Assembly: GCA_947377285.1 (NCBI GenBank)
Contig: CANCFT010000001.1
Span: 124,001-188,000 of the forward strand
From: Bacteriovoracaceae bacterium
GTDB lineage: Bacteria > Bdellovibrionota > Bacteriovoracia > Bacteriovoracales > Bacteriovoracaceae
DNA: 64,000 bases
Direction of reading: 5' to 3'
A model generated the notes under the pieces. It was given only the letters and a program-made list of their open reading frames with translations. It was not told the origin of the DNA and made no database searches. Shown here piece after piece: positions 41,581-58,001 of this stretch (position 1 is the stretch's first letter; each line of letters opens with the position of its first letter). Made by a program: the position numbers and the translations under genes.

Positions 41581-43907
41581 TGAGTGTAGGGAAAAATATA
41601 CGTCACGATTCTGCTATATCACACGTGACAGGAGAGAGCATTTTTATCGATGACAGGGTCATGCTTAAATCTGAAGTTTTAGTAGGAGTACTTGGTTGTC
41701 CTATCTCTGCTGGTAAAATTAAAAATATTGATTACAGTGAAGCCCTTAAAGTTGATGGTATCTTGGGCGTTTTTACTGCCAAAGATTTTCCGCATAATCA
41801 GTGGGGAACGATTGTTTCGGATCAGCCAATTTTAGTTGATGAAATAATTGGCTATATAGACGAGCCGCTGTGTTTAATCGCCGGCATAAATGATGAAGTG
41901 ATTGCTCGTGCTCGGAAATTAATAAAGATTGAGGTTGTTGAGAGCACACCATTACTATCAATTGATGAAGCTTTGGCCGCTGATAAATTTATTTGTAGAG
42001 CGACACCTTTCAAACGAGGGAATGTTGAACTAGCATTTAAAAATTCCCCGCATTTATTAAAAGGAGTTTTTGAATGTGGTGGCCAGGAACATTTTTATAT
42101 GGAGTCGCAAGCAAGTATTGCTTATCCATTAGAAAATGGTCAAATGGAAATTCATTCATCTTCTCAGCATCCAACTGAAACTCAACATGTTGTCGCCCAC
42201 GCACTTAACTTAGATTTTTCTCAAGTTGTTTGTGTGGTGAAACGTATGGGCGGGGGCTTTGGTGGCAAAGAAAGCCAGGCCGCTCATTTTGCTGCGATGG
42301 CCGCATTAGTGGCCTATAAATTAAAGCGCCCCGCTCGACTTGTCCTTACTAAAGACGACGACATGATGATGACGGGAAAACGTCATCCTTGTAAAAATTC
42401 ATATGAAGTTGGGTTTGATGAACATGGAAAAATCTTAGCCTTTAAAACTCAAATTTATGTCAATGGCGGAGCCTATACCGATTTAACACCTTCGATATTA
42501 GACCGAGCGATGTTTCACGTTGATGGTTGTTATTATTTTGAAAACTGTTTAATTGAAGGAGCGGCCCTTCGCACTAACCAACATTCTAATACCGCCTTTA
42601 GAGGTTTTGGCGGACCTCAAGGCAATATGACGATTGAAAGTGTGATTGAGGATATGGCCAATTTTTTAAAAATTGATAGTTATGAAATTCGTAAACTTAA
42701 CCTTTATGGAGTAGAAGATCGCAATTTTACGCCTTATAATCAATTAGTAGATAATAATGTCTTACCAGAAATTTTTGAAAAGCTTTGCATTAGTTCTGAT
42801 TATAAAAAATTAGTTCAAGAGGTAAAAAAATTTAATCTTGGCCTAACAGGAAGGCTCCGTGGGCTTTCGATGACTGGATGTAAATTTGGGATTGCTTTTA
42901 CTGCTAAACATCTCAATCAAGGAAATGCTTTAGTTAATGTTCATCTCGATGGGACCGTGCAAGTTTCAACCGGGGCCACAGAGATGGGGCAAGGGGTGAA
43001 TACTAAAATGCAACAAATTGCTTCTAAAGCATTTGGTATAAGTCCATCAAAAATTGTGATGATGCCGACTTCAACGGAAAAAAATCATAATACTTCTCCA
43101 ACAGCAGCTTCGAGTGGAGCCGATATTAACGGAGCGGCCACATTGCTGGCCTGTGAGAAAATAATAGCGCGTTTGAAGTGGATTGCTCATTGGCATTTTT
43201 CTGGTTTTGTCACAAATGACAAAACTGAGTTTCCAGTGTTTGTTGTGGGAAATGTAAATACAGATCATATTGTTTTTGAACACGAGATGGTTCAAGATCT
43301 GCATTCTGGTAAGAGTTTAACTTGGGTTGAAATATTAAAACTAGCATATTTTAATCGCGTTTCTCTGGGGGACTATGCCTTTTTTAAAACCGAAGGATTG
43401 GGTTTTGATAAAAAAACCTCAACAGGGAAAGCATTTAATTATTTTACCAATGGTGCAGCGGTTTCATTAATAGAAATAGATGAATTTACTGGAGAGTTAA
43501 AAGTTTTACGCACAGATATTTTGATGGACTTAGGGCGCTCAATTAATCCAGGAGTTGATCAAGGTCAGGTATCAGGGGCCTTTATCCAGGGAATGGGATG
43601 GGTTACGACTGAAAATCTTTTCTATCACCAAAACGGAAAACTTTTATCACATTCTCCAACGACTTATAAGATTCCAAATATACAAGATACACCTAGAATT
43701 TTTAATATCGAGCTTTTAGAAAATAATACGAATACTCAAAATATTATGCGCTCCAAAGCAGTTGGAGAGCCTCCGTTGCTTCTAGGAGCTAGTGTGTGGA
43801 TGGCGGTGAAGAATGCTTTGAGTTTTAGAAGTAAATCGATGCTACCGAGGATTACTAGTCCTGCGACCAATGAAGTTATTTTAATGGAGCTTGCCCGCTA
43901 TGAATGA
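41580..43907 (+). CDS. xdhB: Xanthine dehydrogenase molybdenum-binding subunit
   Basis: A 775-residue subunit that oxidises hypoxanthine and xanthine to uric acid at a molybdopterin centre. Typical segments are GGQEHFYMESQA (about 165-176), KRMGGGFGGKES (about 221-232), TNQHSNTAFRGFGGPQGN (about 335-352, with the substrate-binding Arg), GATEMGQGVNTK and AVGEPPLLLGA (about 720-730, with the catalytic Glu). The ATG at 41580 is chosen because it overlaps the xdhA stop; an in-frame GTG three bases earlier is also possible. It overlaps xdhC by eight bases. Confidence 0.94.
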   Translation: MSVGKNIRHDSAISHVTGESIFIDDRVMLKSEVLVGVLGCPISAGKIKNIDYSEALKVDGILGVFTAKDFPHNQWGTIVSDQPILVDEIIGYIDEPLCLIAGINDEVIARARKLIKIEVVESTPLLSIDEALAADKFICRATPFKRGNVELAFKNSPHLLKGVFECGGQEHFYMESQASIAYPLENGQMEIHSSSQHPTETQHVVAHALNLDFSQVVCVVKRMGGGFGGKESQAAHFAAMAALVAYKLKRPARLVLTKDDDMMMTGKRHPCKNSYEVGFDEHGKILAFKTQIYVNGGAYTDLTPSILDRAMFHVDGCYYFENCLIEGAALRTNQHSNTAFRGFGGPQGNMTIESVIEDMANFLKIDSYEIRKLNLYGVEDRNFTPYNQLVDNNVLPEIFEKLCISSDYKKLVQEVKKFNLGLTGRLRGLSMTGCKFGIAFTAKHLNQGNALVNVHLDGTVQVSTGATEMGQGVNTKMQQIASKAFGISPSKIVMMPTSTEKNHNTSPTAASSGADINGAATLLACEKIIARLKWIAHWHFSGFVTNDKTEFPVFVVGNVNTDHIVFEHEMVQDLHSGKSLTWVEILKLAYFNRVSLGDYAFFKTEGLGFDKKTSTGKAFNYFTNGAAVSLIEIDEFTGELKVLRTDILMDLGRSINPGVDQGQVSGAFIQGMGWVTTENLFYHQNGKLLSHSPTTYKIPNIQDTPRIFNIELLENNTNTQNIMRSKAVGEPPLLLGASVWMAVKNALSFRSKSMLPRITSPATNEVILMELARYE

Positions 43908-44688
43908 AGATTTTTTAACTGAGTTGGCTAAATTAAAAGAAACAGGTGTTGCTTGTGTTGTTGTGACTTTAGTTAATGTCAGAGGAAGTGCTCCGCAAGA
44001 AATAGGTGCGAGAATTATAGTGGGTAGCAAAGGATTGCTTTATGGAACCGTTGGTGGTGGAAAAGTTGAAACGAAAGCAATTGCCGAAGCGTTTAAATTA
44101 CTTTTATCTGAAAGCAAACATCTCTATGTTGATTGGAATTTGCAGACTGATGTGGGGATGACTTGTGGAGGTGTGGTTGGCTTTTATTTTGAAAAAATTC
44201 TTCCACTTTCAAATTGGAAAATTGCAGTGTTTGGCGCTGGGCATGTCGCGCAGGAGTTAATTAGACTGTTGGTAAAATTAGATTGTGATATTACTTGTGT
44301 AGATCCAAGGAATGAATGGTTAGATAAAATCCCTGATCATTTTAGGCTAAAAAAAATTCAGACAAATGAGATGAAGTCAGTTTTGATAACTCTTGCACCT
44401 TCAACTTTTATAGCTTCAATGACGATGGGACATGCTTTTGATCAGCCTATTTTACTTGAAGCGATGACTAAGTTTAAATTTCCTTATATTGGGGTGATTG
44501 GAAGTGATTCGAAGGCCAAAATATTAAAGGAGGAGTTGAAAAAAAATGGAGTGAGTGAAACTTTGTTGCTAGAACTGCATTGTCCAATTGGAGAATCATT
44601 TGGCAATAATTCACCAGCTGAAATCGGCATAAGTATTGTGGCTCAGTTAATAAAAAATAGAGATAAAATTTATGCGATTAGATATTAG
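43900..44688 (+). CDS. xdhC: Xanthine dehydrogenase accessory protein XdhC
   Basis: A 262-residue chaperone that inserts the sulfurated molybdenum cofactor into XdhB. The N-terminal part has VRGSAPQEIGARIIV and GTVGGGKVE (about 28-63); the C-terminal Rossmann-like part has VFGAGHVAQEL (about 108-118), YIGVIGSDSK (about 193-202) and the PIG-SFGNNSPAEIGISI end. The ATG at 43900 follows GGAG and overlaps xdhB. No molybdopterin-biosynthesis genes are in this window. It converges on the 120-aa gene, overlapping it by 11 bases. Confidence 0.92.
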   Translation: MNEDFLTELAKLKETGVACVVVTLVNVRGSAPQEIGARIIVGSKGLLYGTVGGGKVETKAIAEAFKLLLSESKHLYVDWNLQTDVGMTCGGVVGFYFEKILPLSNWKIAVFGAGHVAQELIRLLVKLDCDITCVDPRNEWLDKIPDHFRLKKIQTNEMKSVLITLAPSTFIASMTMGHAFDQPILLEAMTKFKFPYIGVIGSDSKAKILKEELKKNGVSETLLLELHCPIGESFGNNSPAEIGISIVAQLIKNRDKIYAIRY

Positions 44689-45040
44689 CGTCTTCCAGAC
44701 TAAGTGTTTCAATATTTGCATCTTGAGCATACTCTTCCATTTTTTCTTCATTATAAAGACGCTTTCCTTTTGGAAGTATTACTCTATAAACCGGAGGAGC
44801 GTTTAGATCCCCATTGCTTTTTTCTAGAACAATGACTGCTTTTTCTGGATGAGACAGACTTGCCGGTTCACCCGATTCAACTTCTTCAATTTTTATTTTA
44901 TTTTTAAAATCAATTTTTTTGGCTTCTGTTAATTGATTAGCTGGTAATTTATGTCCATCAAAATAAAAATGAGCAACTGCAACTGATAATGCTGAAATGA
45001 TTATTGAATTTCTCAATGTTTTATATTTTTTAAAAATCAT
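44678..45040 (-). CDS. Small N-terminally anchored protein, last gene of the motor-like operon
   Basis: A 120-residue protein with a short hydrophobic N-terminal segment (about 11-27, SIIISALSVAVAHFYF) that acts as a signal anchor or signal peptide. The remainder is charged and contains PEKAVIVLEKSNGDLNAPPVYRV (a strand pair). I do not recognise it. It starts four bases after the giant lipoprotein gene with a GGTGG-type site, so it is the last gene of that operon. It may help export or hold the giant protein, but there is no direct evidence. Confidence 0.65.
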   Translation of the reverse strand: MIFKKYKTLRNSIIISALSVAVAHFYFDGHKLPANQLTEAKKIDFKNKIKIEEVESGEPASLSHPEKAVIVLEKSNGDLNAPPVYRVILPKGKRLYNEEKMEEYAQDANIETLSLEDANI

Positions 45041-45044
45041 ATAA

Positions 45045-48000
45045 TTACCACCATTTTTTTACCATTCGCACGTCGTGCCCGTCTCGTTCAGCAATATACA
45101 AGTTTCCATTAGAGTCGAAAGCGAGACCCGCTGGACTGGCTAAACTTATACTTGTAGCAGCGATTCCTTCTTCTTCCTGGTTTTCTTGAGTGTATCCATG
45201 GGCGATATAAACACCTGGGTTTCTACCAAATCTCGTATAAGTCGTTCCTGTTTGGTCATCACGGTTAAAACATATAACATTATGATTTGCCGAATTTGAA
45301 TTTGCATTACTTGAGTAATTAAAATCTCCCCCAGATGAAAAACAAATTTGAGTATCAAACGCTGCCAAGTCAGCACCGTGAATATCGGCTGCTGTGTAGA
45401 TCGTTTTAATTTCGCCCGGATTTATTGTCACTCCGAAAATTGTCACGGCCGAAGAATATTGATTTATATATCGTATCTTCGTAGCAGTTGATGTCGTTTG
45501 ATCCAAAATAAATAAGTTCCCAGAAGTAGAGTATGGAGATCTTGGGTCTGCAACAACAGCGGTTGGTAAATTAAACCGCACAGAAGAATTTGTATACGCA
45601 AGCCCAGCTCCGTTTGCAGTACCAGATGTTCCACAGAGACCTGAGAAAGTGGACATGTTGCCGTTTACATCAAGTTTAATAATACAGTGCTGATTTGTAT
45701 CGGCAAAATAAAGGTTAGTTCCATCAGTTGTTATACCTTGAGGGTTTTGCAAGCGTGCTGTCGGATCTGTACCAGTCGTCGCAGTTGCATTCCATGCTCC
45801 ACAGCCATTGATATAATTTCCAGCAATTGTCTGAACAGCATTAGAGTAGACTGAGACTCCAAAAATAGTTTGAGTTGAAGTTAGTGTATTCCAAGCGCGA
45901 TAAAGGCAGTTACTCGATTGGTTATCACCAAAAATAATATGATTTTGATAATTAACAATATTTCGAGGTCCTTGCATTCCAAGTGCCGTCGGATCAGCTT
46001 GAGAAGTATTAGCGTTACCGTTTCCGTTAGAGATATAAGAGTCAATGCGACCTGTGTTTAAATTGAGTGCGCGAATTTTGTAATTATAAAAATCTGAAAC
46101 TAAGAGTTTACCTGAGTTTGGTTCAAAATAAAGATTCATCGGTTGGTTGAACTGAACATTCTCAGATGATGTACCACCATTACCAGCATAACCAGGCTTT
46201 CTGTCAAAACCTAAATCATCTGCTACTGTCCCATTGGCAGTGCTTAAATCGAGAGAGCGAACGCGGAAGTTGGCGTAATCTGAGACGTAAAGCTTATTAC
46301 CAAAAGCGAACATTCCTGAAGGAGTATTGACGTAACAAGCATTACCACCGGCACTTGTACATGGCATATAATAAGCAGCTGTACCACCACCTGGAACGTT
46401 ACCACTACCATTCCAAATGACGTTCATCGAATAGCTAGGCACAATCGAGTTTCCAAAAGTGACAGAACCGGCAGTATTATTAAGATAAGCAATGCGAGAC
46501 TGATTATACTCTGAAACAAAAATACCATTAAGTGTAGAGCCACTTAAATTAAGTTCAACTTGCAACCATCCACCATTAAATCTAGCTGATGCGTAGGCAT
46601 TGGCCGCTGGAGCTGAAGTGATAGCACCCGCAGTGATTACTCCACCTGTAGTAAAATTGGTACAAGCTGTGGCATTGGCACCATTAATTCCGGCGATTGT
46701 GACCGTGCTACTGGCAGGAAGAGTTACTGCCCCATAAAAATAATTAGTTTTAGCAGTTGCTGTTAAGTTTATGGCCTTAACTTTACAATGGCTCGAATCA
46801 GTCACATAGAGAATATTATTGGTTGCATCTAATTTTAACCCGAGAGGAGCGACGAACATATTTGTACCGCCATAAGCGTTCGTTCCATCAGAGGATCCTG
46901 AAACAATAATCCCAGCAGTTGATGCATTATATCCGGATACAATACTGGCAGTCCAAAGCGAAGGTGTGGCATTTGTTGTATCGATGGATTTAACAGTATT
47001 ACTTCCCGAGCATGCAACGTAGAGAAGTTTAGTCGTACTATTATAAGCTAACCCTCTAGGTGTTGCACAATATGTTCCGTTAAGAGCGATAGTTCCATTC
47101 GAATTGTAAACTGAAGTGTTAGTGTTTACGTTTGTCATGATAACAGTTACGGTTCCGGAGCTATCAAGCATTAAAATACGGTTGTTACTTTCTTCAGCAA
47201 TAAAGAGTCTTTGATTTAGATAATCCCAAGCAATTCCGCGTGGGTTATTGAGAGGAAAATCATTCCAAGCTGTGCCCGTCGTTCCGGTTCCGGTTTGTCC
47301 AACTCCCATTACTGCTTTAAGAACTCCTGCACCAATTGTTTGGCCTAAAATACTTATTGATCCAGCAGTTTTATTATAAAACCAAACAGAATGAGTCATA
47401 TCATCATTAAAGAAATATGAAGAGGTCGCAGTACCGGCCGCAGTTGTATACCCACTTATAAATTGTGGACGAATCATTGTTGCAGAAGGATTAGTCGCAG
47501 GAATGATATTACTTGAACGTCCTGGGCGACCAATAATTGTACATGCTTTTCCAGCACCCATATTATTACAAATATCAGAGAAGTAGTTTACGTTGAGTGT
47601 CCAGGTTTGAGTGGCCGTCTCTTTTCCATCGCTAACTTGTAGGACAATTGTGTTATCACCAATTCGTGCAGCGGTCGGAGTAAATGTTAAAGTGGACGAG
47701 CTACCAACTGTAGAAACACTGGCATTAGCGTTTCCTGCTTGAACAGTTGTACCATTAAGTAACCAAGTCACGGCCATGGTGTCACCGTTAGCATCTGAAA
47801 AACTTCCACTAAAATTAATGACAGTATTAATATTAACTTTTGGAGTTGTACTTGCGGGACTCAGTGATGCAAGTACTGGAGGAGCATTTTTAATGATATT
47901 AAAAGTTTTAGATTGATTTGAATCAGAATCATTAACTTTAACAACTAAAGTATGTGCACCTGTAGAAAGTGAAGCTGCTGTTATAGTCGTATAGTCAGAA

Positions 48001-51000
48001 GTTGAAGAAGCGAGAACTGATCCGTCTAATTTCCATTCATAAGCTAATGGTGCTTTACCGGTAGCATTGATGTTAAAAATTTGGCTTCCAGTGCTTAAAA
48101 CATTAATCGGATCAGTAGAAGGCGAGTATGCATTGATAGCGACGATTGTTGGGTTGACAACTGTGACCGTCCAAGTCTTAGAGGTCGTTTCATACCCATC
48201 AAAAACATCAACCTTGATAGTTTGAACACCAACTTCTAAACAAGTCGGCGAATAAGTGGTCTTAGCTAACGACTGAGTAGAGCTATTGACTAAATTTGTA
48301 GCGGTGCTGTCGCCATTGATGTACCAAGTAATCGACATGATATCATTATCAGCATCAGATATATAAGATTGTAAAACTTGGGAACTCGATCCACAGTTAA
48401 GAGTTGTGCCGGTTAAAGCAGGTGAGAAAGTTAAACCGGATGGTGGAACTGCCGGCGACGAATTTTTTCTCACAGTAAAGACGTGAGAGTCTGATGATGA
48501 ACCATTTGTTGCAGCAGCAGTTAATTCATATAGCCCACCAGCGATTGTTGAACCCACTAAGTTGTAGAATGGAACACTTCCTGATTGAAGTGTAGTTGTT
48601 ACAGCTGTAGTTAAATTTTTAAGTAAAAAGCTGTAGGTAACATTGGCATCTGAAGTAGCTAAAGCGACTGCAAAAGTTGTCGTTTGGGCACTTGTTAAAA
48701 TAGTCGGATTACTGGCAGGTAAAAAACTAGTTATATGCACAGCTATTGGTGTTGCAATCGTAATTGACCATGTCACAGATACTGTCTCAAAACCATCACT
48801 AACAATTGCTTTTACTACACGTGTCCCTGAAATAGCACAGCTTGGGTTAAAAGAGACCTGAGCTCTATTTCCCGAATTTTGTGTAGTGATAAAAGCAGAA
48901 GGAGCATCATCAACATACCACGTATAAGAAAGAGTATCCCCATTTGCATCAAACATATCTGCATATAAAGTTAAAGGTGCAGTTCCACAGTTTACAGTTG
49001 TTCCTGAAAGCGCAGGGGAGAACGCTGAGACAGTAGGTGCCGCATTTTTTCTTATATTAAAAGTGTGAGTGGCCGATGAAGTAGCATTGCTTGCAGTTAC
49101 TTTTAATGTATGCGTGCTTGTGCTCAAACTTGATCCAGCTAAATTATAATATGTCCTATGGTCATTTTGAACAGTTGTTGAGTTGTCTAACACAAAAGTA
49201 TAGTTTGCAGTTGTATCTGGATTTACAAGAGTTACACCAAATGTCGCTGAAGTTGTACCAGTTAAAACTGTAGGATCAGATGTTGGTGTCGTATCAGAAA
49301 TTAAAATATTAATAGGAGCTGTTACGTATACTGTCCAGGTTTGGCTTGTAATTTCATGGCCATCATTTAAATCCAAGCGGATTGAATTGATTCCAGTTTG
49401 AGTGCAATCTGGATGGTAGTTTAGTGAGGCAATATTATTGGCAGTGTCGTTAGACGCTGTTGCCGTTGTGTTACCAAAACTAATTAATGAATTATTAAAA
49501 TACCATTTGATAGAAACAGAATCAGCTAAATTTGCATCAGCATATAGTGCAGAGATTGATACACTTCCCAAACTACAGGCAAGATTACTTCCTGTAAGCG
49601 TTGGGGTAAATGAGACTATACTTGGAGGAGCATTAACATTAATTGTAAAAGTGTGAGTGTCAGATGAGGTCACGTTACTAGCTGTGACTTTTAAAATATG
49701 AGTTCCAGCCGATAAAGAACTTGTTGATAAAGTATAAAATGGATTTGTTCCAGTTTGAAGTGTCGTTGTATTATCTAGTAAGAATGCGTAGTTCGCCGAA
49801 GCATCTGCGTTGAGAAGACTTACCCCAAAAGTTGAAGTCACGTTAGAAGTTACATTCGTCGGCTCAGTTGTTGGTGTGTAAGAATTAATCGCAATTACAA
49901 TGGCGGGATTATAAACAGTGACAGTCCAAGTTTTTGTCGTAGTTTCAAAGCCATCATTAACATTTACTTTAATTGTTCTTACTCCAACGTCAGCACAAGT
50001 TGGTGTAAACGTAACTTTAGCTAAAGATTGAGTTGAAGCAGTTACCATGCTACTAGCAGAAGTTGAGCCATCAAGTGTCCAAGTAACACTCATTGTATCT
50101 GAGTCAGCATCTGTTATTGTAGATTGGAAAATTTGTGTACTAGCACCACAACTCATTGTTAACCCTGTTAAGGCCGGCGAAAAAGATCCTGCGGTTGGTG
50201 GTACTTCTGGAGCTGTGTTTTTTCTTATTGAATAGACATGTGAATCGTTTGAAGTAGCGTTACTAGCTTTTGCCGTTAACTGATAAGTGCCAGCAGCTAA
50301 TGATGAACCTGTTAAATCATAAAATGGGCTTACGCCTGACTGAAGCGTCGTCGTAATTCCGCTAGTCATATTTTTTAGTGTAAAAGCATAAGTTACATTT
50401 ACATCATTAGTAACTAAAGATAATCCGAAAGTTGTAGTCGAAGTATTTGTTACAATGATTGGAGTCGTCGCTGGAGAATAAGAAGCGATTTGGATTGTCA
50501 CTGGTGTAACAACAGCTACTCCCCAAGAAACAGTTGTTGATTCATACCCATCGCTCACGATTACTTTTATAACTTTATTCCCAGCAATTGCGCAATTAGG
50601 ACTGAAAGTAGTCTGTGCTCTATTTCCAGAGTTTCCTGGAGTTAAATATCCAGATGGAGCATCGTCAACAAACCAAGTATAAGTCAAAGTATCACTATTA
50701 GCATCTGTCATGTCTGCATAAAGTGTAATCGGAGCTGATCCACAAACTAAACTCGTTCCTGTTGCAGCTGGAGAAAATGCCGAGACCACTGGCGGAGCAT
50801 TTTTTCTAATATTAAAAGTATGTATATCGCTTGAGTTGGAATTGCTGGCCGTAACCTTTAATGTATGAGTTCCTGCCAATAACGAAGAACCAGACATATT
50901 GTAAAATGTTCTATGATCATTTTGAACAGAAATAGCATTGTCTAAAACAAAGTTAAAATTAGCTGTTGAATCTGCTGTTTGAAGTGTTACTCCAAAAGTA

Positions 51001-53549
51001 GAAGTCGTTGAACTAGTCAAGACGGTAGGATCAACCGTAGGAGTACTGTCAGAAATATGAATTGTAATTGGTGCTGTGACGTAAACAGTCCACGTTTGAG
51101 AAGTAATTTCATGCCCATCATTTAAATCAACTCTAAGAAGATTAATTCCAGTTTGAGTACAATCGGGATGAAAGTTTAATAAAGCAATATTATTACTTGT
51201 ATCATTTGTTGCTGTTGCCGTTGAGTTTCCAAAACTAACGAGTGAATTATTCAAATACCATTTAATTGAAACAGTATCTGTTAAGTTTGCATCTGCATAA
51301 AGCATTGAGAGGTTTGCATTATTAAGTCCACAACCCAAACTTGTTCCTGTTAATGTTGGTGTGAATGATACAACCGATGGAGGTGCATTGATGACGAGAT
51401 TGAAAGTATGAGTGTCTGAAGAAGTAACATTACTTGCAGTCACTTTTAAAGTATGAGCACCAGTTGCGATCGCACCACTTGCTAAGTTATAGAAAGGATT
51501 TACTCCGCTCTGAAGAACAATTGTGTTGTCTAATAAAAAACTGTAATTAGCTGAAGGATCCGCAGTCGCAAGGGTGACTCCCAATGTAGCTGAAGTTGTT
51601 GAGTTAAGGTAGATTGGATCTGCCGTTGGTGTGAATGAGTTGATCGCAATAACAATCGAAGGATTGTAAACCGTAATAGTCCAAGTCTTAGTTGTAATTT
51701 CATGGCCGTCATTGACTTCTAATCGAATCGTTTTGACTCCAATATCACTACAGCTAGGTGTATAAGTCGCTTTTGCTAAACTTTGATTAGAGGAGTTAAC
51801 AAGATTAGTTGCACCACTTGTTCCATCAAGAAACCATGTGCTTGTCATCGTTTCACTGTCCGGGTCTGAAATATAAGACTGAAAAATTAATGAAGGCGTA
51901 TTACAATTTAAAGTTGTGCCAGTTAAAGTCGGTGAAAAAGTTAATGGTGAAGGCGGAACAAGTGGAGGTGAATTTTTACGAACAGTAAAAACATGCACAT
52001 CTGAAGAAGTTCCATTAGAAGCGGTAACTGTTAGCTCATAAGTTGCAGCCGCAAGAGTAGAACCAACTAAATCATAAAATGGAGTTGTTCCATTTTGAAG
52101 AGTTGACGTAGCTGCCGTTTGAAGATTTTTTAAAGAAAAATTATAAATAACTCCGACATCTGACGGTGATAGTGAAACAGCAAAAGTTGTTGTTGTTGCA
52201 TTTGTTAAAATTGTTGGACTTGCAGTTGGTGAAAAACTTGAAATGTGTATTGCCACTGGAGTAACTACTGATATGGCCCAAGTGACAGTAGTCGATTCAA
52301 ATCCATCACTCACTAAAACTTTAACAACTCTATTTCCTGAAATAGAGCAGCTTGGGTTAAAAATTGCTGAAGCATGGTTTCCAGAGTTACCTGGAGTGAT
52401 ATAGGTAGAAGTTGCTTCGTCTACAGTCCAAGTATAGGACAATGTATCCGAGTTTAAATCAAACATGTCTGCATAAAGAGTAATGGGAGCAGATCCACAA
52501 CTTAAAGTTGTCCCTGACAAAGCAGGAGAGTAAGCCGTGGCAGTCGGTGGTGAATTCTTTCGAATATTAAAAGTATGAGAGTCGGTAGAGTTTGCATTAC
52601 TTGCAATGACTTTTAAAGTGTGATTTCCAGGGCTCAATGCTGAACCTAAAATATTTGTATATGACCGAGAGTCGTTTTGGACAGGTATTGTATTATCTAA
52701 AATAAAATTAAACATTGCCGTCGAGTCGGCATTTTGAAGTGTCACACCAAAAGTTGCACTGGTTACACCAGTTAGTACTGTTGGGTCAGTTGTCGGAATT
52801 GAATCAGAAATATGGATCGTTATTGGTGCAATGACATTAATGGTCCATGTCTTGGTGGTAATTTCATGACCATCATCTAAGTCCAAACGAATAAAATTAA
52901 TTCCATTTAAGGTACAATCTGGATGAATGTTTAATAAAGCAACATGGTTTGCGGGATCGTTCGTGACTGTCGCATTTGTATTTCCAAAATTGACTTGATT
53001 ATTATTTAGATACCATTTAATAGTCACAGAGTCAGAAACGTCTGCATCAGAATAGATTACAGAAAGATTTGAATTATTTACTGCACATGCCAGTGTTGTA
53101 CCTGTGAGGGTTGGTGTGAAAGAAGTGACAACAGTAGGTGAGTTAACATTTATATTAAATGTATGATGGTCTGTTGAGATTGAGTTCGTTGCAGTTACAA
53201 CTAAAACATGTGAGCCTGGGGTTAATGAACTAGTTGAAAGGTTATAAAATGGATTAATACCACTTTGAAGAGCGATATTATTATCTAAAAGAAAAGTATA
53301 GTTAATAGAAGAATCAGTTTCAGCTAAAGTAATACCAAAAGTTTCTGTAACATTAGATGCAAGATTTACTGGATCAAGGGCCGGAGTAAAAGTACTGATT
53401 GAAACATGAACTGGGTTAACTACACTATCAGGTGTAACGACAGCATCTAATCCACCAAATTTTCCGCCGGAGGCTTTACATGAAACTAATACAAGCAGCA
53501 TTATATTGAATGCCCACTTGATTAGAAATTTTAATTTAGAAACCTTCAT
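45045..53549 (-). CDS. Giant repetitive lipoprotein: Ig-like super-repeats and NHL-type C-terminal region
   Basis: About 2834 residues. A lipoprotein signal ends at Cys24 (MLLVLVSC). Residues 48-1985 hold ten units of about 195 residues; each has two Ig-like beta domains marked by IxSFTPTxDP, THTFNI and TPTLTG-like strands, DGHEITxxTW. Units fall into types A, B and C repeated three times (period 585 residues), plus a last divergent unit. Nine units carry two Cys in the second domain (about 50-60 residues apart), probably a disulfide; the last lacks them. Residues 1990-2834 have repeated NPRGIAWD, LFIAEESNNRIL, LYVTDSSHCKVKAI and LYIAERDGHDVRMV patterns, typical of NHL-type propellers. ATG at 53549 is chosen over TTG at 53561. 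Likely on the cell surface. Confidence 0.85.
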   Translation of the reverse strand: MKVSKLKFLIKWAFNIMLLVLVSCKASGGKFGGLDAVVTPDSVVNPVHVSISTFTPALDPVNLASNVTETFGITLAETDSSINYTFLLDNNIALQSGINPFYNLSTSSLTPGSHVLVVTATNSISTDHHTFNINVNSPTVVTSFTPTLTGTTLACAVNNSNLSVIYSDADVSDSVTIKWYLNNNQVNFGNTNATVTNDPANHVALLNIHPDCTLNGINFIRLDLDDGHEITTKTWTINVIAPITIHISDSIPTTDPTVLTGVTSATFGVTLQNADSTAMFNFILDNTIPVQNDSRSYTNILGSALSPGNHTLKVIASNANSTDSHTFNIRKNSPPTATAYSPALSGTTLSCGSAPITLYADMFDLNSDTLSYTWTVDEATSTYITPGNSGNHASAIFNPSCSISGNRVVKVLVSDGFESTTVTWAISVVTPVAIHISSFSPTASPTILTNATTTTFAVSLSPSDVGVIYNFSLKNLQTAATSTLQNGTTPFYDLVGSTLAAATYELTVTASNGTSSDVHVFTVRKNSPPLVPPSPLTFSPTLTGTTLNCNTPSLIFQSYISDPDSETMTSTWFLDGTSGATNLVNSSNQSLAKATYTPSCSDIGVKTIRLEVNDGHEITTKTWTITVYNPSIVIAINSFTPTADPIYLNSTTSATLGVTLATADPSANYSFLLDNTIVLQSGVNPFYNLASGAIATGAHTLKVTASNVTSSDTHTFNLVINAPPSVVSFTPTLTGTSLGCGLNNANLSMLYADANLTDTVSIKWYLNNSLVSFGNSTATATNDTSNNIALLNFHPDCTQTGINLLRVDLNDGHEITSQTWTVYVTAPITIHISDSTPTVDPTVLTSSTTSTFGVTLQTADSTANFNFVLDNAISVQNDHRTFYNMSGSSLLAGTHTLKVTASNSNSSDIHTFNIRKNAPPVVSAFSPAATGTSLVCGSAPITLYADMTDANSDTLTYTWFVDDAPSGYLTPGNSGNRAQTTFSPNCAIAGNKVIKVIVSDGYESTTVSWGVAVVTPVTIQIASYSPATTPIIVTNTSTTTFGLSLVTNDVNVTYAFTLKNMTSGITTTLQSGVSPFYDLTGSSLAAGTYQLTAKASNATSNDSHVYSIRKNTAPEVPPTAGSFSPALTGLTMSCGASTQIFQSTITDADSDTMSVTWTLDGSTSASSMVTASTQSLAKVTFTPTCADVGVRTIKVNVNDGFETTTKTWTVTVYNPAIVIAINSYTPTTEPTNVTSNVTSTFGVSLLNADASANYAFLLDNTTTLQTGTNPFYTLSTSSLSAGTHILKVTASNVTSSDTHTFTINVNAPPSIVSFTPTLTGSNLACSLGSVSISALYADANLADSVSIKWYFNNSLISFGNTTATASNDTANNIASLNYHPDCTQTGINSIRLDLNDGHEITSQTWTVYVTAPINILISDTTPTSDPTVLTGTTSATFGVTLVNPDTTANYTFVLDNSTTVQNDHRTYYNLAGSSLSTSTHTLKVTASNATSSATHTFNIRKNAAPTVSAFSPALSGTTVNCGTAPLTLYADMFDANGDTLSYTWYVDDAPSAFITTQNSGNRAQVSFNPSCAISGTRVVKAIVSDGFETVSVTWSITIATPIAVHITSFLPASNPTILTSAQTTTFAVALATSDANVTYSFLLKNLTTAVTTTLQSGSVPFYNLVGSTIAGGLYELTAAATNGSSSDSHVFTVRKNSSPAVPPSGLTFSPALTGTTLNCGSSSQVLQSYISDADNDIMSITWYINGDSTATNLVNSSTQSLAKTTYSPTCLEVGVQTIKVDVFDGYETTSKTWTVTVVNPTIVAINAYSPSTDPINVLSTGSQIFNINATGKAPLAYEWKLDGSVLASSTSDYTTITAASLSTGAHTLVVKVNDSDSNQSKTFNIIKNAPPVLASLSPASTTPKVNINTVINFSGSFSDANGDTMAVTWLLNGTTVQAGNANASVSTVGSSSTLTFTPTAARIGDNTIVLQVSDGKETATQTWTLNVNYFSDICNNMGAGKACTIIGRPGRSSNIIPATNPSATMIRPQFISGYTTAAGTATSSYFFNDDMTHSVWFYNKTAGSISILGQTIGAGVLKAVMGVGQTGTGTTGTAWNDFPLNNPRGIAWDYLNQRLFIAEESNNRILMLDSSGTVTVIMTNVNTNTSVYNSNGTIALNGTYCATPRGLAYNSTTKLLYVACSGSNTVKSIDTTNATPSLWTASIVSGYNASTAGIIVSGSSDGTNAYGGTNMFVAPLGLKLDATNNILYVTDSSHCKVKAINLTATAKTNYFYGAVTLPASSTVTIAGINGANATACTNFTTGGVITAGAITSAPAANAYASARFNGGWLQVELNLSGSTLNGIFVSEYNQSRIAYLNNTAGSVTFGNSIVPSYSMNVIWNGSGNVPGGGTAAYYMPCTSAGGNACYVNTPSGMFAFGNKLYVSDYANFRVRSLDLSTANGTVADDLGFDRKPGYAGNGGTSSENVQFNQPMNLYFEPNSGKLLVSDFYNYKIRALNLNTGRIDSYISNGNGNANTSQADPTALGMQGPRNIVNYQNHIIFGDNQSSNCLYRAWNTLTSTQTIFGVSVYSNAVQTIAGNYINGCGAWNATATTGTDPTARLQNPQGITTDGTNLYFADTNQHCIIKLDVNGNMSTFSGLCGTSGTANGAGLAYTNSSVRFNLPTAVVADPRSPYSTSGNLFILDQTTSTATKIRYINQYSSAVTIFGVTINPGEIKTIYTAADIHGADLAAFDTQICFSSGGDFNYSSNANSNSANHNVICFNRDDQTGTTYTRFGRNPGVYIAHGYTQENQEEEGIAATSISLASPAGLAFDSNGNLYIAERDGHDVRMVKKWW
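48144..53408 (-). repeat. Three tandem 1755-bp super-repeats inside the giant lipoprotein gene
   Basis: Matching points such as GTAATTTCATG occur at 49348, 51103 and 52858, exactly 1755 bases (585 codons) apart. The copies are about 51654-53408, 49899-51653 and 48144-49898. Each codes for units A, B and C. They have diverged at the nucleotide level, so the duplication is not recent. Confidence 0.85.
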
Positions 53550-53564
53550 ATATTTTTCCAACGT

Positions 53565-54125
53565 TTAGAATCCTATTATCAAGCCAACTAAAATATTCAT
53601 TTCAGAGGCACTTGCATCTGAAGCACCTGTATATGTATTCATTTTAACCTCTGTTTTCATTGTATACTTAGGATTGATGTATTTCTCGCAACCTAATGAA
53701 AATCCAAAGCCAGCATAGGATGTCTTGGCAGACTGGAATTGCCTCTGATTAAAGGCAATTCCAACATAGGGTTTATAAAAATCATGGACTTCGATTGATT
53801 TGTTGTTAACTTCGACTTTATCGTTACTTGAAAAGTTTAGTGGAAAATAGTTTACTCCTATTTTGGGGCCATATGCGTAGTCACCACCAATAATACTCGT
53901 CATAGTAAAACTATATCCAAGATTCATTTCAAAGTGATCTTTAAACGAAACTAGATATGACGCCTCATAAGTACCAAGACCTGAAAGTGATACAGTTTTA
54001 CCAGAAACTTTTGCTGAATAAGAATACATCCCAAACATAAGGTCATATTTTCCAGCATAGGAATTAGTACTTAATAAAAAAATGCTGACTGCAATTAAAC
54101 TATGCAGCTTGCGAGTTATTGTCAT
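53565..54125 (-). CDS. Outer-membrane beta-barrel protein, about 186 aa
   Basis: A signal peptide (about 1-24, ending SYAG) is followed by an eight-strand-like pattern of alternating aromatic and polar residues (KYDLMFGMYSYSAKV, HFEMNLGYSFTMTS, KIGVNYFPLNF, YAGFGFSLGCEKYI) ending in Phe (LVGLIIGF), as in small OMPs. It overlaps the 3' end of the motor-like gene; the ATG at 54125 is chosen, and one at 54134 is possible but too close to its AAGGA. It precedes the giant lipoprotein gene by 15 bases and may anchor or export it. The family is not recognised. Confidence 0.75.
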   Translation of the reverse strand: MTITRKLHSLIAVSIFLLSTNSYAGKYDLMFGMYSYSAKVSGKTVSLSGLGTYEASYLVSFKDHFEMNLGYSFTMTSIIGGDYAYGPKIGVNYFPLNFSSNDKVEVNNKSIEVHDFYKPYVGIAFNQRQFQSAKTSYAGFGFSLGCEKYINPKYTMKTEVKMNTYTGASDASASEMNILVGLIIGF

Positions 54126-55824
54126 TATTATCATCTTCCTTATCTTTTTTATTTGTATTATTTTTATTCATACTTTTTGATAACATGAGCTGGTGAAATC
54201 TTTTTCCCATTTCTTCTCTTAATTCAATTTGCTCTTTTGCAGAAACTGGATTTTCATCAAGTTGTTTTAAGTAGCTTGAAAAAAGGTATTTTTTCTTTTC
54301 ATCGAGTTCATTCGTAATTCTTTTCAAGTAATCCCTGGGAGAATTGATAACAACTGTTGCCCAATCAGACAGATCAAATTGAGAAAAAATTTCTTTAAAA
54401 TCTTCTGGTTCAGCTTTTAAAACTGCATAAAATGGAGGTCTGAGATTGTGAATAGGAGATTCTGAACTTAGAGATTCATAAATATCTTCTTCATCTTTTA
54501 TAGAGGTTGTTCTTAAGTAATCAACCAATTCCAAATCTTTTTTATATTCATCTATTGATTTAAAACTAAAGTATGGTTTTAATTGAAGTGTTCGTTCTAC
54601 ATAGTCTGCTAACTTATCTTCATCTTCCATTGCCGAATATTCTTTTGATTCTAAAATACGCGCCCAACCTCCAGGGAATGCTTTTTTTGCTGTAGGAACA
54701 GAAAAGGCTTTAGGCATATGACCTAATATTGTGAAGGATTCTTCGGCCGGAATTTGTTTTAAAAATAATGGAGCTTCATCTCCTAATCGCCATACTTGAA
54801 CTAGTAGTTCTTCCCATTTTTCTGAGCCGGTAGCATTTCGGCTACGAAGCATTTTTTCCACCGCTAAAAAACAATCCATATCTACCGAGGCAGCTTCAAC
54901 ATAACCTCGAAACCATTTTTCAGATCTTCCTCTGAAAAAGACTTTTTGCTGATGTTTTCTTGGCATTTCAAAAACAAATGCTCCAAATGAACTTAAAGAT
55001 TTTTCAGATAATTCTTCTAAGATGAGAAGATCTGAAAGTAATGGAAAAATCGGAGCATTGATAACACCATGAAGTTTTTCTTTTAGCATATCAGCTGCAC
55101 GCAAGCTGTCTTTAAAGTTTATATCTCCGTTTACTTTTGAATTTACTAACCCACTAGCTTGGAAAGTTGATTTTCCTCCACTTGCATGTGCTCTGGCCGG
55201 CATTCCTGCTGTTGCAGATGAACTTGTTGATGCAGGGGCCGAAGCACTTGCTGGAGCACCATGGTGCTTTACTCCAAAACGTAGGATAACAAATAGACCA
55301 CCAAAAGTAATAAGGGCCATACCAGCAATGAAATAGTAAAGAGAGTAGTCTTTCGACTCAGTTGTTGGTTTTGCCACAAAAGCTTTTCTATCAATTGTGA
55401 TGCTATCTCTACCCGGAATTAATTTTAATTGCTCATAGAGTTTTTCTTTTAAATCACTTAATTCAAAATCAGTTGTATTGTTTGGAACTTCAACTTTTAT
55501 AGTTGCTTTTTTAATTCTTGAAAGTAGTAAAACCATTGGGGTATCCAAAACATCCCATTCGTCACCAACTTCATCTTCACTATAGAAATAGGGAAGTTGT
55601 TCACTTTTAACTCCAGCATTTCTTCTAAGAGGTTCTACATCTACATTGACGTAAACTGGCCCTGTCGGAATTCTCTGTTGGAGGAAAGTCATTGCCTGTT
55701 TTGAAATCAACATTTCAACTTCGATAACTTTTGGGTGTTTGCCCATCGCTTGGTCTTGCGCCCAAGAAGCTACAGATGTAAATAAAGTCGAAATTAAAAA
55801 AAGATAAAAAATAATTTTTTTCAT
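54100..55824 (-). CDS. FliF/FliG-like membrane protein (possible motor rotor)
   Basis: A 574-residue protein. A signal peptide (1-22) is followed by a periplasmic domain (about 23-160) with PGRDSITIDRKAF (about 137-149), which resembles the ring-building segment of FliF/YscJ. One transmembrane helix lies at about 161-182, then an Ala/Ser/Pro/Gly-rich linker (about 189-220). The cytoplasmic part (about 225-545) resembles FliG in LLSDLLILEELSE and, near the end, AEPEDFKEIFSQFDLSDWATVVI and FSSYLKQLDENPVSA, the FliG C-terminal domain pattern. An acidic/Asn tail ends it. It starts inside the motB stop (ATGA). The FliF/FliG relationship is my inference from pattern and context, not from a search. 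Confidence 0.6.
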   Translation of the reverse strand: MKKIIFYLFLISTLFTSVASWAQDQAMGKHPKVIEVEMLISKQAMTFLQQRIPTGPVYVNVDVEPLRRNAGVKSEQLPYFYSEDEVGDEWDVLDTPMVLLLSRIKKATIKVEVPNNTTDFELSDLKEKLYEQLKLIPGRDSITIDRKAFVAKPTTESKDYSLYYFIAGMALITFGGLFVILRFGVKHHGAPASASAPASTSSSATAGMPARAHASGGKSTFQASGLVNSKVNGDINFKDSLRAADMLKEKLHGVINAPIFPLLSDLLILEELSEKSLSSFGAFVFEMPRKHQQKVFFRGRSEKWFRGYVEAASVDMDCFLAVEKMLRSRNATGSEKWEELLVQVWRLGDEAPLFLKQIPAEESFTILGHMPKAFSVPTAKKAFPGGWARILESKEYSAMEDEDKLADYVERTLQLKPYFSFKSIDEYKKDLELVDYLRTTSIKDEEDIYESLSSESPIHNLRPPFYAVLKAEPEDFKEIFSQFDLSDWATVVINSPRDYLKRITNELDEKKKYLFSSYLKQLDENPVSAKEQIELREEMGKRFHQLMLSKSMNKNNTNKKDKEDDNNDNNSQAA

Positions 55825-56540
55825 AGTACACTCTGTTCGTTATCGTGCTTAATAATTAAAATAACAGTTCTTGAAATATCTTGAAGTTCAATTCCGGAGA
55901 GCTCTTTTAGTTTTGCAGGAGTCATTAGAGATTGAATTTTATTCATTTCTCCATAGCCAGCTAGTTCTAATTTTTCAAGTGGGATACCAGCTCTTTGTAG
56001 AGTTCTCAAAGCAGCGAGTGCTCTTAGAGCGGAAAGTTCCATATTGTCGAGGTATCGATGTCCATTTTTGACAGGGCGTTTATCTGTAAACGCTTTAATG
56101 CTTATTTTGTATAATCCAGCATAAGGAACAAATTTTTGAGCAAATTCTTTTAATGTTTCTTGTCCTTCAGCATTAGGTTCAATCTCTGCAGTTTTAAAAA
56201 AATTCATTTTATCAAAAGTAACCAACATTCTATCGTCAATTTTAGTAATTTTAGCATTTTTTAATAAATCAAACTTTGGAGCATCATCTAATTTTTTTCC
56301 GAGACCATTTTTTTCATTAATTGGGGGAGTAATCTTTTTATTATCAATTTCAAATATTTTAAAACTAGAGATGAGATGATCATCTAGTTTATCTTTTTGA
56401 TCTTTTTTAAAATCAGTAGAAAAGAAAATAACAAAAAAGCTAAGTAATAATGTAATCATATCACCATAACTAATTGCCCATAGTTCATCATTTTCTTGTT
56501 CTTCGTGTGAATGTTGAGCCAGTTTTTTACTCAATCCCAT
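55821..56540 (-). CDS. MotB-like stator subunit
   Basis: A 239-residue protein with one N-terminal membrane helix containing the ion-binding Asp27 in ISYGDMITLLLSFFVIFFS (about 23-41), as in MotB. The plug-type segment follows, then a C-terminal OmpA-like peptidoglycan-binding domain (about 115-225; FFKTAEIEPNAEGQETL, ELSALRALAALRTLQRAGI, LELAGYG). It anchors to the cell wall and conducts protons or sodium with MotA. It lies 25 bases after motA. It overlaps the FliF/FliG-like gene by four bases. Confidence 0.9.
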   Translation of the reverse strand: MGLSKKLAQHSHEEQENDELWAISYGDMITLLLSFFVIFFSTDFKKDQKDKLDDHLISSFKIFEIDNKKITPPINEKNGLGKKLDDAPKFDLLKNAKITKIDDRMLVTFDKMNFFKTAEIEPNAEGQETLKEFAQKFVPYAGLYKISIKAFTDKRPVKNGHRYLDNMELSALRALAALRTLQRAGIPLEKLELAGYGEMNKIQSLMTPAKLKELSGIELQDISRTVILIIKHDNEQSVL

Positions 56541-56565
56541 ATAATCCCATTTTAAATTTATTCAC

Positions 56566-57372
56566 TTAAGCTGCTTGTGCTTCTTCTTCGTTTTCATTGC
56601 CGGAAGCTTTCATAGCATTCATAAAATTAATTTTTACTTTTTCATCACCTAAATAAGAGTTAAAAGTTTCCTGACACTCAATTAAGTTATAATTTTCTTT
56701 GACCATCAAAACAGTTTTAATGGCAACTTCTACTAATTCTTCATCTGCTTTGAGTTTTTCTAAAATAGCTTCAGAAATTGGGTTTAAGACTAAGTTTGAA
56801 AGTAGAAGTCCATAAAATGTAGCAACAAGTGCAACGGCCATTCTTACGCCGGTTTCTTTTGGGTCAGCTCCGGCCGATATCCCTTTCATTAAATGGATAA
56901 GTCCCAAAACGGTTCCACCTAACCCAAAAGCAGGAGGGTATTTCGCGCATCTTTTTATCCAAGAAGAAATTGATGTTATTGTTTTTTTATAAGCTAAGTA
57001 ACGATCAGCTAATATATCTTCAATTTTTTCTTTATCAAAACCCAATTCGATCATTTCGAAACCGTCTACAACGATTTTATCTTCTATTTTTGATATTTTA
57101 CTGTCAGGAAGGGCTCGTTCTGAAACCGCACGAAAGCATCTTTGAACAAATTTAAGTTTGTTTTTTTTCATTCCAAAAAGATAAGTAATGAAATTTGATA
57201 ACAAAATTTTTGTTTTGATTTTTGGTCTGGTAATTATAAGGACTGATACTGTTCCAAAAAAGACAACTGAAAAAGCAACAAAGTCCCAATAGTTTGAAGC
57301 ACCTTGCTTTAAATGCATGGAGGCGGCCACGAGACCCCCAACGGCAAATAAAAAACCAACTATAAAGTTCAT
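56566..57372 (-). CDS. MotA-like stator subunit
   Basis: A 268-residue membrane protein with four membrane helices (about 2-20, 31-48, 145-165, 178-198). A cytoplasmic loop of about 95 residues (50-143) contains basic and acidic residues (RCFRAVSERALPD, RYLAYKK) of the kind that contact the rotor. The MotA-type prolines are seen in KYPPAFGLGGTVLGL (Pro146/147) and SNLVLNPISEAIL (Pro198). It overlaps the PEGA/TPR lipoprotein gene by four bases. It lacks the long tail of Zorya ZorA, so a defence role is unlikely. Confidence 0.9.
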   Translation of the reverse strand: MNFIVGFLFAVGGLVAASMHLKQGASNYWDFVAFSVVFFGTVSVLIITRPKIKTKILLSNFITYLFGMKKNKLKFVQRCFRAVSERALPDSKISKIEDKIVVDGFEMIELGFDKEKIEDILADRYLAYKKTITSISSWIKRCAKYPPAFGLGGTVLGLIHLMKGISAGADPKETGVRMAVALVATFYGLLLSNLVLNPISEAILEKLKADEELVEVAIKTVLMVKENYNLIECQETFNSYLGDEKVKINFMNAMKASGNENEEEAQAA

Positions 57373-58001
57373 TGCACTTCTCCTGATTGAGATTTAACAA
57401 GATTTTGAATTCTCTCAACAATTATTTTTCTTTCTGCATTTTGCGGATTTAAACTCATGGCACGGTTATAGTTCTTTAGAGCTTTGGCAAATTTCTTTTG
57501 TAGGTAATAAATATTACCTAAGTAATCATAGCCAACGCTAACAGAAGGATACTGTTCAATGAAATTGAGCATCACTGTTTCTGCTTCTGGTAATTGCTTT
57601 GATTGAATAAGTCCATTGGCCCTGGCAATTGCATTGGCTACTTTTTCTTGAGTAATGGATTGCTCGCCTACGTTTTGGACTGTCTCATCTTTTTTAAGTT
57701 GAATATTTACAGAAATATCACTGCCTAGAGTTGACTTCATTAACACAATTTCATTTTCAAGATAGCCATCTTTTTTAATTCTGATTTGTGTATAACGATT
57801 TGTACTTTTATAGACATCACTTTCATTGCTCGTCAGAGGAGTCTTTCCCAAAGAAGTAACTATGCCAGTGGATTCAACAACACTTACTTCTGCGTCACTT
57901 GGAGTTGATTGAAATTTAACTGTTGAAGAAGTCGAACATGCAGATAACAAATTCATTGCAATTAAAAATAGATATAATTTGAGAACCCGAGATTTGAACA
58001 T
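57369..58001 (-). CDS. Lipoprotein with PEGA-like and TPR domains
   Basis: A 210-residue lipoprotein (lipobox LLSAC, Cys about 22). A PEGA-like beta domain (about 28-105; VKFQSTPSDAEVSV, GKTPLTS, IRIKKDGYLEN) is followed by a TPR-type helical part (about 120-205; VSVGYDYLGNIYYLQKKFAKALKNYNRAMSLNP). PEGA domains bind surface or wall polymers, and TPRs serve as docking sites. It is the first gene of the motor-like operon, behind the sigma-28-like promoter, and overlaps motA (ATGA). Confidence 0.88.
   Translation of the reverse strand: MFKSRVLKLYLFLIAMNLLSACSTSSTVKFQSTPSDAEVSVVESTGIVTSLGKTPLTSNESDVYKSTNRYTQIRIKKDGYLENEIVLMKSTLGSDISVNIQLKKDETVQNVGEQSITQEKVANAIARANGLIQSKQLPEAETVMLNFIEQYPSVSVGYDYLGNIYYLQKKFAKALKNYNRAMSLNPQNAERKIIVERIQNLVKSQSGEVQ

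Follow-up and report, generated by a model that had tools for sequence, protein, structure and literature searches.

The window analysed here is a 64,000-nucleotide stretch of contig CANCFT010000001.1 (assembly GCA_947377285.1) from a Bacteriovoracaceae bacterium of the phylum Bdellovibrionota. Its minus strand carries, at 44678-58001, seven tightly packed open reading frames (ORFs) that code for a MotA/MotB stator, a 574-amino-acid (aa) protein with FliF-like and FliG-like parts, two predicted lipoproteins, a small predicted outer-membrane barrel and a short anchored protein (Table 1). Going down the operon from the TPR gene, the junctions are a 4-nt overlap, a 25-nt gap and a 4-nt overlap as far as the gene of the 574-aa protein, then a 35-nt overlap (smaller with a later start), a 3-nt gap and a 4-nt gap. 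This packing had been described in an earlier reading made from the letters alone (hereafter the sequence-only reading), and the ORF list agrees with it in coordinates and junctions.

Table 1. Genes of the minus-strand operon and the evidence on which each is described
Feature	Position in window	Strand	Evidence
210-aa TPR lipoprotein, PEGA-like N-terminal part	57369-58001	-	lipobox LLSAC (by eye); TPR_2 38.6 bits
MotA-type stator subunit, 268 aa	56566-57372	-	MotA_ExbB 67.4 bits; four membrane helices (by eye); C-terminus ...EEEAQAA
MotB-type stator subunit with Asp27, plug and OmpA-like peptidoglycan-binding domain	55821-56540	-	MotB_plug 40.9, OmpA 38.9 bits
574-aa one-piece FliF/FliG-like protein, C-terminal AA	54100-55824	-	AlphaFold model, Foldseek, hhalign
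189-aa small outer-membrane beta-barrel	53565-54134	-	AlphaFold model, Foldseek
2838-aa giant lipoprotein	45045-53561	-	lipobox to Cys28 (by eye); NHL 58.3 bits, over cut-off; Ig-like repeats
120-aa anchored protein, no known domain	44678-45040	-	ORF; Pfam gave no domain

The 574-aa protein was modelled with AlphaFold2 from 56 aligned members of its family, called type A below (mean predicted local distance difference test score, pLDDT, 84.5). In the model, a signal helix is followed by a helix (31-51), a strand (58-65), an insert, a strand (104-114), a helix (119-132) and a strand (140-147). The rest of the chain is a membrane helix (161-188), followed across a disordered linker by a part made of helical repeats (240-570). 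The order of helices and strands in the periplasmic domain is that of ring-building motifs (RBMs). The insert, in which L77, P78 and W90 are invariant in the family alignment, stands where RBM3 of FliF has its collar. The FliF RBM3-like domain spans about 31-147. RBM1, RBM2 and the first membrane helix of FliF are absent from the model, which contains one RBM-like domain and one internal membrane helix.

A Foldseek search of this model against 350,542 PDB chains returned flagellar FliG, FliF or MS/C-ring chains at all of places 1-22. They include the FliF RBM3/collar and full-length FliG, as well as some C-ring chains named only by their complex; OsmC-type folds appear from place 23 on. Profile comparison with hhalign placed the periplasmic half on FliF 357-429 (E 3.5e-5), a segment that ends just ahead of the second membrane helix of FliF. 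It aligned the cytoplasmic half with FliG 126-331 (E 5.4e-4). The crossed control pairs were clean (E 0.29 and 0.17). When the family profile was searched against PDB sequences, FliG_C structures ranked first (E 3.8e-4). Scanned singly against Pfam with a permissive limit of 10, 29 of the 56 members matched FliG_C (best 1.2e-6), the window member not being among the matches shown. Taken alone, neither the 574-aa protein nor the barrel reached a Pfam or NCBIfam cut-off. A phmmer search of the 574-aa protein against PDB sequences gave a lone match to an antibody chain (E 0.39), which is meaningless and was discarded. Thus, the FliF-like periplasmic part and the FliG-like cytoplasmic part proposed in the sequence-only reading are both matched, in structure by Foldseek and in profile by hhalign. 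The structural search on which that reading had staked its proposal found FliF as well as FliG. In type A the fold of a ring-building motif ahead of the membrane helix is recovered by the model, by Foldseek and by hhalign alike. The protein therefore consists of a signal peptide, one FliF RBM3-like domain, a membrane helix and a FliG-like cytoplasmic part.

MotA and MotB had been recognised in the sequence-only reading together with the catalytic Asp27 of MotB. Both are found again by the Pfam families MotA_ExbB, MotB_plug and OmpA, and Asp27 is invariant in 19 aligned sequences. The best NCBIfam match of MotA is MotP (81.2 bits, below the cut-off of that model). On the rotor side, the torque residues of E. 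coli FliG, as named in PMC12505986, were moved to type A through an alignment with T. maritima FliG. Position 510, aligned to the arginine of the torque helix, is K or R in 55 of the 56 members. Position 517 is E in 29 of the 56, and the four commonest residues at 518 are non-acidic.

The remaining conserved gene products would belong to the cell envelope and the surface. In the TPR protein, described earlier as a PEGA/TPR lipoprotein, the TPR part is borne out by TPR_2. PEGA gave no Pfam match in the window protein at E<=1; among relatives, one TPR protein scores 21.0 bits for PEGA (cut-off 20.8) and another 15.0. Because a relative exceeds the cut-off, the label "PEGA-like" is fair and is kept here. 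The lipobox pattern occurs in 46 of 70 TPR proteins and 31 of 39 giant proteins, compared with 78 of 498 other ORFs. The AlphaFold model of the barrel (pLDDT 92.8) has a signal helix and barrel strands. Its Foldseek matches are Ail, NspA, OmpA, OmpX and OmpW, in keeping with the small outer-membrane barrel proposed before.

The giant protein had been read as an immunoglobulin-like (Ig-like)/NHL lipoprotein of 2.8 kilo-residues, and the length, the NHL score and the lipobox in Table 1 agree with this. Its likely start is an ATG four codons in. The Ig-like repeats show a higher-order period of 585 residues at 55% identity and are followed by C-terminal NHL repeats; the match to tandem-95 (57.3 bits) lies below the cut-off of 90. 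Its C-terminal part is conserved in relatives of 998-2340 aa. In the relatives' loci the giant gene is often divergent, upstream or on the opposite strand, so the giant is a constant partner rather than a fixed member of the operon.

Type A is found in 69 of the 368 genomes of the phylum. Its distribution is patchy (4 of the 14 genomes of the window's own genus), and 70 of the 71 match rows have no internal stop. Wide regions around the operon were taken for 20 chosen genomes out of the 69. All 20 contain the fusion protein, MotA, the TPR protein and the barrel, and 19 contain the giant by profile. MotB is present in 19; the missing one is concealed by the ORF filter behind an opposite frame. 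A MotA-alignment scan of named genomes found 190 relatives, of which the best 80 were kept, with some overlap in genomes with the 20-region set. The titles of these 80 loci are all those of metagenome-assembled genomes, from Bdellovibrionota lineages or unplaced "Proteobacteria" or "bacterium" entries, plus one Streptomyces griseus title. The contig under that title (L133) carries a typical Bdellovibrionota operon and is surely mislabelled.

Gene order was counted in the 59 of those 80 loci that have a fusion ORF of at least 500 aa. MotB lies directly upstream of the fusion gene in 56. MotA lies within three genes of it in 58, largely by construction, the loci having been picked through MotA. 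The TPR protein is found at most four genes upstream in 52, the barrel at most two genes downstream in 43 of the 46 loci with enough sequence, and a giant-family protein in 28 of the 30 loci of at least 18 kb. For the 120-aa protein, weak matches came from two close relatives among the five whose regions were compared, and a match from one of the 80 loci. The set formed by the TPR protein, MotA, MotB, the fusion protein, the barrel and the giant lipoprotein is conserved. Chance packing was considered and is excluded by this conservation of gene order across the relatives' loci. The co-occurrence in relatives that the sequence-only reading had asked for is present in the wide regions as well as in the best 80 of the 190 loci.

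The fusion protein has sister types. In the window's genome (3.45 Mb in 68 contigs) a second locus, on contig C61, encodes a 674-aa fusion protein, type B, together with a TPR/PEGA-like protein, MotA and MotB. The contig end cuts this locus (L020, G000:C61:1-4985), leaving just the first part of another secreted protein. Type B is present in 65 of the 368 genomes; some extra rows there are 350-370-aa frames, probably FliG. Type C came to light in complete genomes, as 580-585-aa frames with a FliG_C match. Counted only at 186 bits or more, its profile finds 26 of the 368 genomes. A tally of 304 of 368 obtained with the same profile was dropped as a measure of spread, since it counts type C together with FliG-length frames (about 340-360 aa) and further proteins that resemble FliG. 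Additional frames of 700-900 aa are also found among the matches to this profile. One type-C protein exceeds the Pfam cut-offs for FliG_M (32.0 against 25 bits) and FliG_C (40.2 against 23.3); its FliG_N match (25.5 against 25) falls on the residues of FliG_M and was not counted. Type D (749-765 aa; L311:7480-9729 and L313:7958-10255) comes from other families of the phylum, with a MotA that bears an AA tail adjoining it. A type-D protein is over the Pfam cut-offs for FliG_M, FliG_C and also MgtE_N.

In profile comparison, types A, B and C match each other over 455-510 columns at 93-97%. Type C matches type A over 510 columns (97%) and FliG over 263 columns (96%). At least one of the three types is present in about 134 of the 368 genomes (hand tally). 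The MotA tree groups by fusion type, with support of 62/98 for A, 100/96 for B, 83/98 for C and 100/99 for D. These groups stand apart from two flagellar-type rows, one further row and three TolQ-like rows. The place of the further row and of one TolQ-like row is unsure, because both have long branches. The window's genome also has two stand-alone FliG_C-like proteins of 142 aa (L272:4922-5350 on C39 and L273:5916-6344 on C30; 67 and 58 bits), and short proteins of this kind occur likewise in other genomes of the window's family.

A type-C set is found at 2.913-2.920 Mb of a 3,782,950-bp genome, presumably, from its length, that of Bdellovibrio bacteriovorus HD100. It comprises the fusion protein, a 325-aa protein, a 194-aa barrel-like protein, a TPR/PEGA-like lipoprotein, MotB and MotA. 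The fusion protein of this genome is the one that exceeds the Pfam cut-offs for FliG_M and FliG_C. Farther upstream, the strand of the set also codes for proteins of 407, 469 and 390 aa and for giants of 2058 and 1769 aa; lipoboxes at this locus were judged by eye. The 1769-aa giant has fn3 and ten FG-GAP stretches, compared with the Ig-like and NHL repeats of type A. FG-GAP is a propeller-type repeat. No FliG_C match lies near the first motAB pair of this genome (0.129 Mb). From its map position, the type-C MotAB should be bd3021/bd3020 (motA2/motB2). In PMC11323537, MotAB2 is treated as a gene pair and as a flagellar stator, like all three MotAB pairs of B. bacteriovorus. The same source reports that FliL-Bd1076 bound MotB3 and neither MotA2 nor MotB2. 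This result is weak, because the assay also missed MotA-MotB pairs.

The relation to the flagellum was followed through motifs and through genome content. The EHPQ motif, with which FliG binds FliM, is present in 17 of 18 FliG and in none of 93 fusion proteins (56 of type A, 30 of type B, 5 of type C and 2 of type D). Of the 368 genomes, 318 have FlhA. In G098, a single genome of 94% completeness, neither FlhA nor the type-C profile, which elsewhere finds FliG-length frames, gave a match. Its only FliF match is partial (27 bits, in a 500-aa frame; FliF controls score 183-203 bits). G098 carries two type-B loci, each with MotA, MotB, a TPR/PEGA-like protein, the fusion protein and a giant (1566 or 1777 aa, lipobox by eye). 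A neighbour at one locus has a sub-threshold beta-barrel match (26.8 against 28.7 bits), and no barrel was recognised at the other. FlhA is likewise unmatched in four more type-B genomes, of 66-88% completeness, one of which has FliF. In genus g55, a frame of 435-500 aa matches FliF weakly and in part (26-31 bits) in three genomes without an FlhA match (G096, G098 and G099); its product may be another ring protein. Since the type-B loci of G098 occur without a match to FlhA, full-length FliF or FliG, the machine seems not to need a flagellum. Of the non-flagellar motor proposed in the sequence-only reading, it is the non-flagellar part that these loci support, whereas its proposed use for gliding or prey contact and its action on the giant lipoprotein remain inferences.

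Alanine tails set two of the proteins apart. They were counted in complete ORFs of at least 120 aa in the 80 type-A-centred loci, whose sequences are related and not independent. The C-terminal residue is Ala in 59 of 76 MotA and 54 of 55 fusion proteins, and the last two residues are AA in 44 and 37 of them. The corresponding counts are 1 of 70 for MotB, 1 of 70 for the TPR protein, 0 of 54 for the barrel, 0 of 39 for the giant and 26 of 498 for other ORFs (AA in 9). Beyond type A, a terminal Ala is found on the fusion protein in 27 of 30 type-B and 4 of 5 type-C sequences, and on MotA in 5 of 5 type-C and 2 of 2 type-D sequences; FliG has it in 0 of 18. In type-A loci the tail is confined to the two proteins whose C-termini are expected in the cytoplasm, at ends that are otherwise poorly conserved. 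A C-terminal AA is a ClpX-type signal. The presence of these ends on MotA and the fusion protein and not on the other parts suggests regulated proteolysis of the two.

Among 17 window proteins scanned with Pfam (the seven of the operon, the four next to it at lower positions and six at higher ones), none is a flagellar export, rod, hook or filament protein, and the ten neighbours include no flagellar family. Xanthine-dehydrogenase-type genes (an FAD and [2Fe-2S] subunit, a molybdopterin subunit and XdhC) occupy 40117-44688 on the plus strand and point at the operon. This run overlaps the gene of the 120-aa protein, the last of the operon, by 11 bases. Promoter and terminator scans gave site counts below those of shuffled sequences and are left out of the argument. 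Rfam and ARAGORN together found only two tRNAs, both outside the operon, and the plasmid tblastn search gave zero matches. Elsewhere in the window's genome, on contig C9, two TolQ/TolR-type motor clusters (Agl-like, by eye; L021 and L022) stand ahead of genes for secreted proteins of 933 and 1008 aa. In the region L018, a cluster of this type comes directly after the giant lipoprotein gene.

We consider it rather probable that the operon encodes a complete ion-driven motor separate from the flagellum, a rotor-stator machine that would act on a giant surface adhesin. MotA and MotB would be the stator, anchored to peptidoglycan through MotB. Copies of the 574-aa protein would oligomerise by their FliF RBM3-like domains to form a ring in the inner membrane with its own FliG-like track, so that the MS ring and the torque surface of the C-ring would be joined in one polypeptide. 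MotA could turn or step this ring. Force might then pass from its periplasmic face to the TPR lipoprotein, the small outer-membrane barrel and the giant Ig/NHL lipoprotein, which would grip prey or a surface. The likely output would be gliding or another contact-dependent movement over surfaces. The Ala tails on both subunits with cytoplasmic C-termini would probably let a protease remove the motor at some point in the life cycle. According to PMC13104615 (section 8), Bdellovibrio uses neither flagella nor pili to glide, and its gliding machinery is unidentified; the rotor-stator machine is perhaps this gliding motor. The TolQ/TolR-type clusters of the window's genome remain competitors for that role. 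A wider proposal goes further. It would make the operon one of several types of a new class of rotary motor with a one-piece MS-ring/rotor, including that of B. bacteriovorus with "MotAB2" as its stator, which drives a giant repeat-built adhesin, supplies the missing gliding or prey-contact motor of the phylum and is switched off by Ala-tail proteolysis. We put it forward tentatively, as a possibility short of an even chance.

Several observations weigh against the reading as a separate motor. The Foldseek E-values are modest (4e-3 to 0.17, none below 0.001), and the hhalign probabilities for type A are 72% for the FliF half and 30% for the FliG half. For FliG_C the score of the window protein by itself, 14.1 bits, falls below the cut-off. 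Type B does not match FliF significantly (E 0.011) and matches FliG weakly (0.0012); it is counted as a member because it matches types A and C. Of the charges of FliG, just the basic one is widely kept, and no place could be assigned to the MotA charges R90/E98, the partners of FliG in E. coli. The tails are not universal (5 of 15 for type-B MotA, 0 of 2 for the type-D fusion). Type A lives with flagella, since FlhA is present in 67 of the 69 type-A genomes, compared with 251 of the 299 others (hand tally). In one of the 20 type-A regions, L066, Pfam identified a flagellin gene (L066:3500-4348, minus strand) about 3 kb from the operon and on the other strand. The case in which flagella seem to be missing is a single genome, G098. 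In B. bacteriovorus, according to a 2011 study, each of the three motAB pairs reportedly contributes to swimming.

Among the alternatives, the set could be an energised machine of the envelope whose task is to export, fold, place or retract the giant lipoprotein, in the manner of Ton, Tol and Gld motors, and does not move the cell. The constancy of the giant protein and the small barrel as partners is in line with this, and a giant gene that is so often divergent or on the opposite strand may be that of a client. Further secreted proteins at type-B loci, recognised by eye, point the same way. Against it, systems of the Ton/Tol type are not known to need a FliG-like torque track or ring domain, and no known export family was found among nine proteins scanned. 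We regard such a machine as unlikely.

Slightly less likely still, in our judgement, is a flagellar accessory. The fusion protein would then form an alternative or additional ring of a (sheathed) flagellar motor, MotAB would provide extra stators tuned to viscosity or to the sheath, and the lipoproteins and the barrel would dress the sheath. The near-constant company of FlhA, the flagellin gene near one of the 20 operons and the treatment of all three B. bacteriovorus pairs as flagellar stators, with the 2011 swimming study, are what this view has in its favour. It has to face the missing FliM-binding motif in 93 of 93 fusion proteins and the lack of RBM1, RBM2 and the first membrane helix of FliF. 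The FliL-Bd1076 binding result also speaks against it, weakly. Moreover, the window's genome has an ordinary FliF (568-aa frame), FliG (353-aa frame) and flagellar-type MotAB elsewhere, so the operon is not the sole motor set there. The two type-B loci of G098 are difficult to reconcile with a flagellar accessory, and it was on them that the related notion of a duplicated flagellar stator was lowered. It is very improbable, and already disfavoured, that the operon is what is left of a flagellum in decay, or that the fusion protein is MgtE-like and resembles FliG just through a shared helical superfold: MgtE_N is matched by 10 of 56 members (best 0.001) and, above its cut-off, by a type-D protein that also matches FliG, and type-A FliG scores are weak one by one, but type-C and type-D proteins pass the FliG_M and FliG_C cut-offs, the operon is conserved with reading frames almost always intact, and the FliF match lies in the other half, in flagellar order.

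In the open-licence PMC papers searched, none described a non-flagellar FliF/FliG fusion that goes with MotAB. We rate the proposed motor as a new kind of system, because it lacks defining features of the flagellum and of the Agl systems among those tested. As in the bacterial flagellar motor, the operon has MotA and MotB with the plug, the OmpA-like domain and the catalytic Asp. As there, too, the 574-aa protein has a membrane helix after a FliF RBM3-like domain, a middle and a C-terminal part that resemble those of FliG, and the basic residue of the torque helix. Unlike in the flagellum, the FliF and FliG parts share a single polypeptide without the EHPQ motif for FliM, an outer-membrane barrel and a giant lipoprotein belong to the operon, and no export or hook gene is found among the window proteins scanned. 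Sister loci of type B occur, moreover, in a genome without detectable flagellar genes. If the proposed machine is real, a FliG-type rotor and a FliF-type ring would be workable outside the flagellum in a single polypeptide, which would bear on the build and evolution of flagellar motors.

AglRQS of Myxococcus is TolQ/TolR-like; no FliG-type rotor is known in the AglRQS/Glt machinery, and no FliG/FliF ring in the GldLM motor and type IX secretion system (T9SS) of Bacteroidota. In contrast to AglRQS, the operon's MotA best matches flagellar PomA/MotP-type models and stands apart from TolQ-like proteins in the tree. The likeness to AglRQS/Glt lies in a MotAB-like motor that drives gliding there (PMC13104615). 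The likeness to GldLM/T9SS, by the same source, lies in a rotary ion-driven motor tied to surface adhesins, GldLM itself being non-homologous to MotAB. A further counterpart would be MotAB2 of B. bacteriovorus (bd3021/bd3020, by map position and presumed strain identity), the presumed MotAB of the type-C system. In print it is treated as a flagellar stator that stands as a gene pair, and the passages of PMC11323537 consulted make no mention of fusion, barrel or giant neighbours. One of the three "flagellar" stator pairs of B. bacteriovorus may thus be misassigned, and the gene set described here offers a defined candidate for the gliding machinery of Bdellovibrio, with a counterpart in what is presumably the genome of the model predator.

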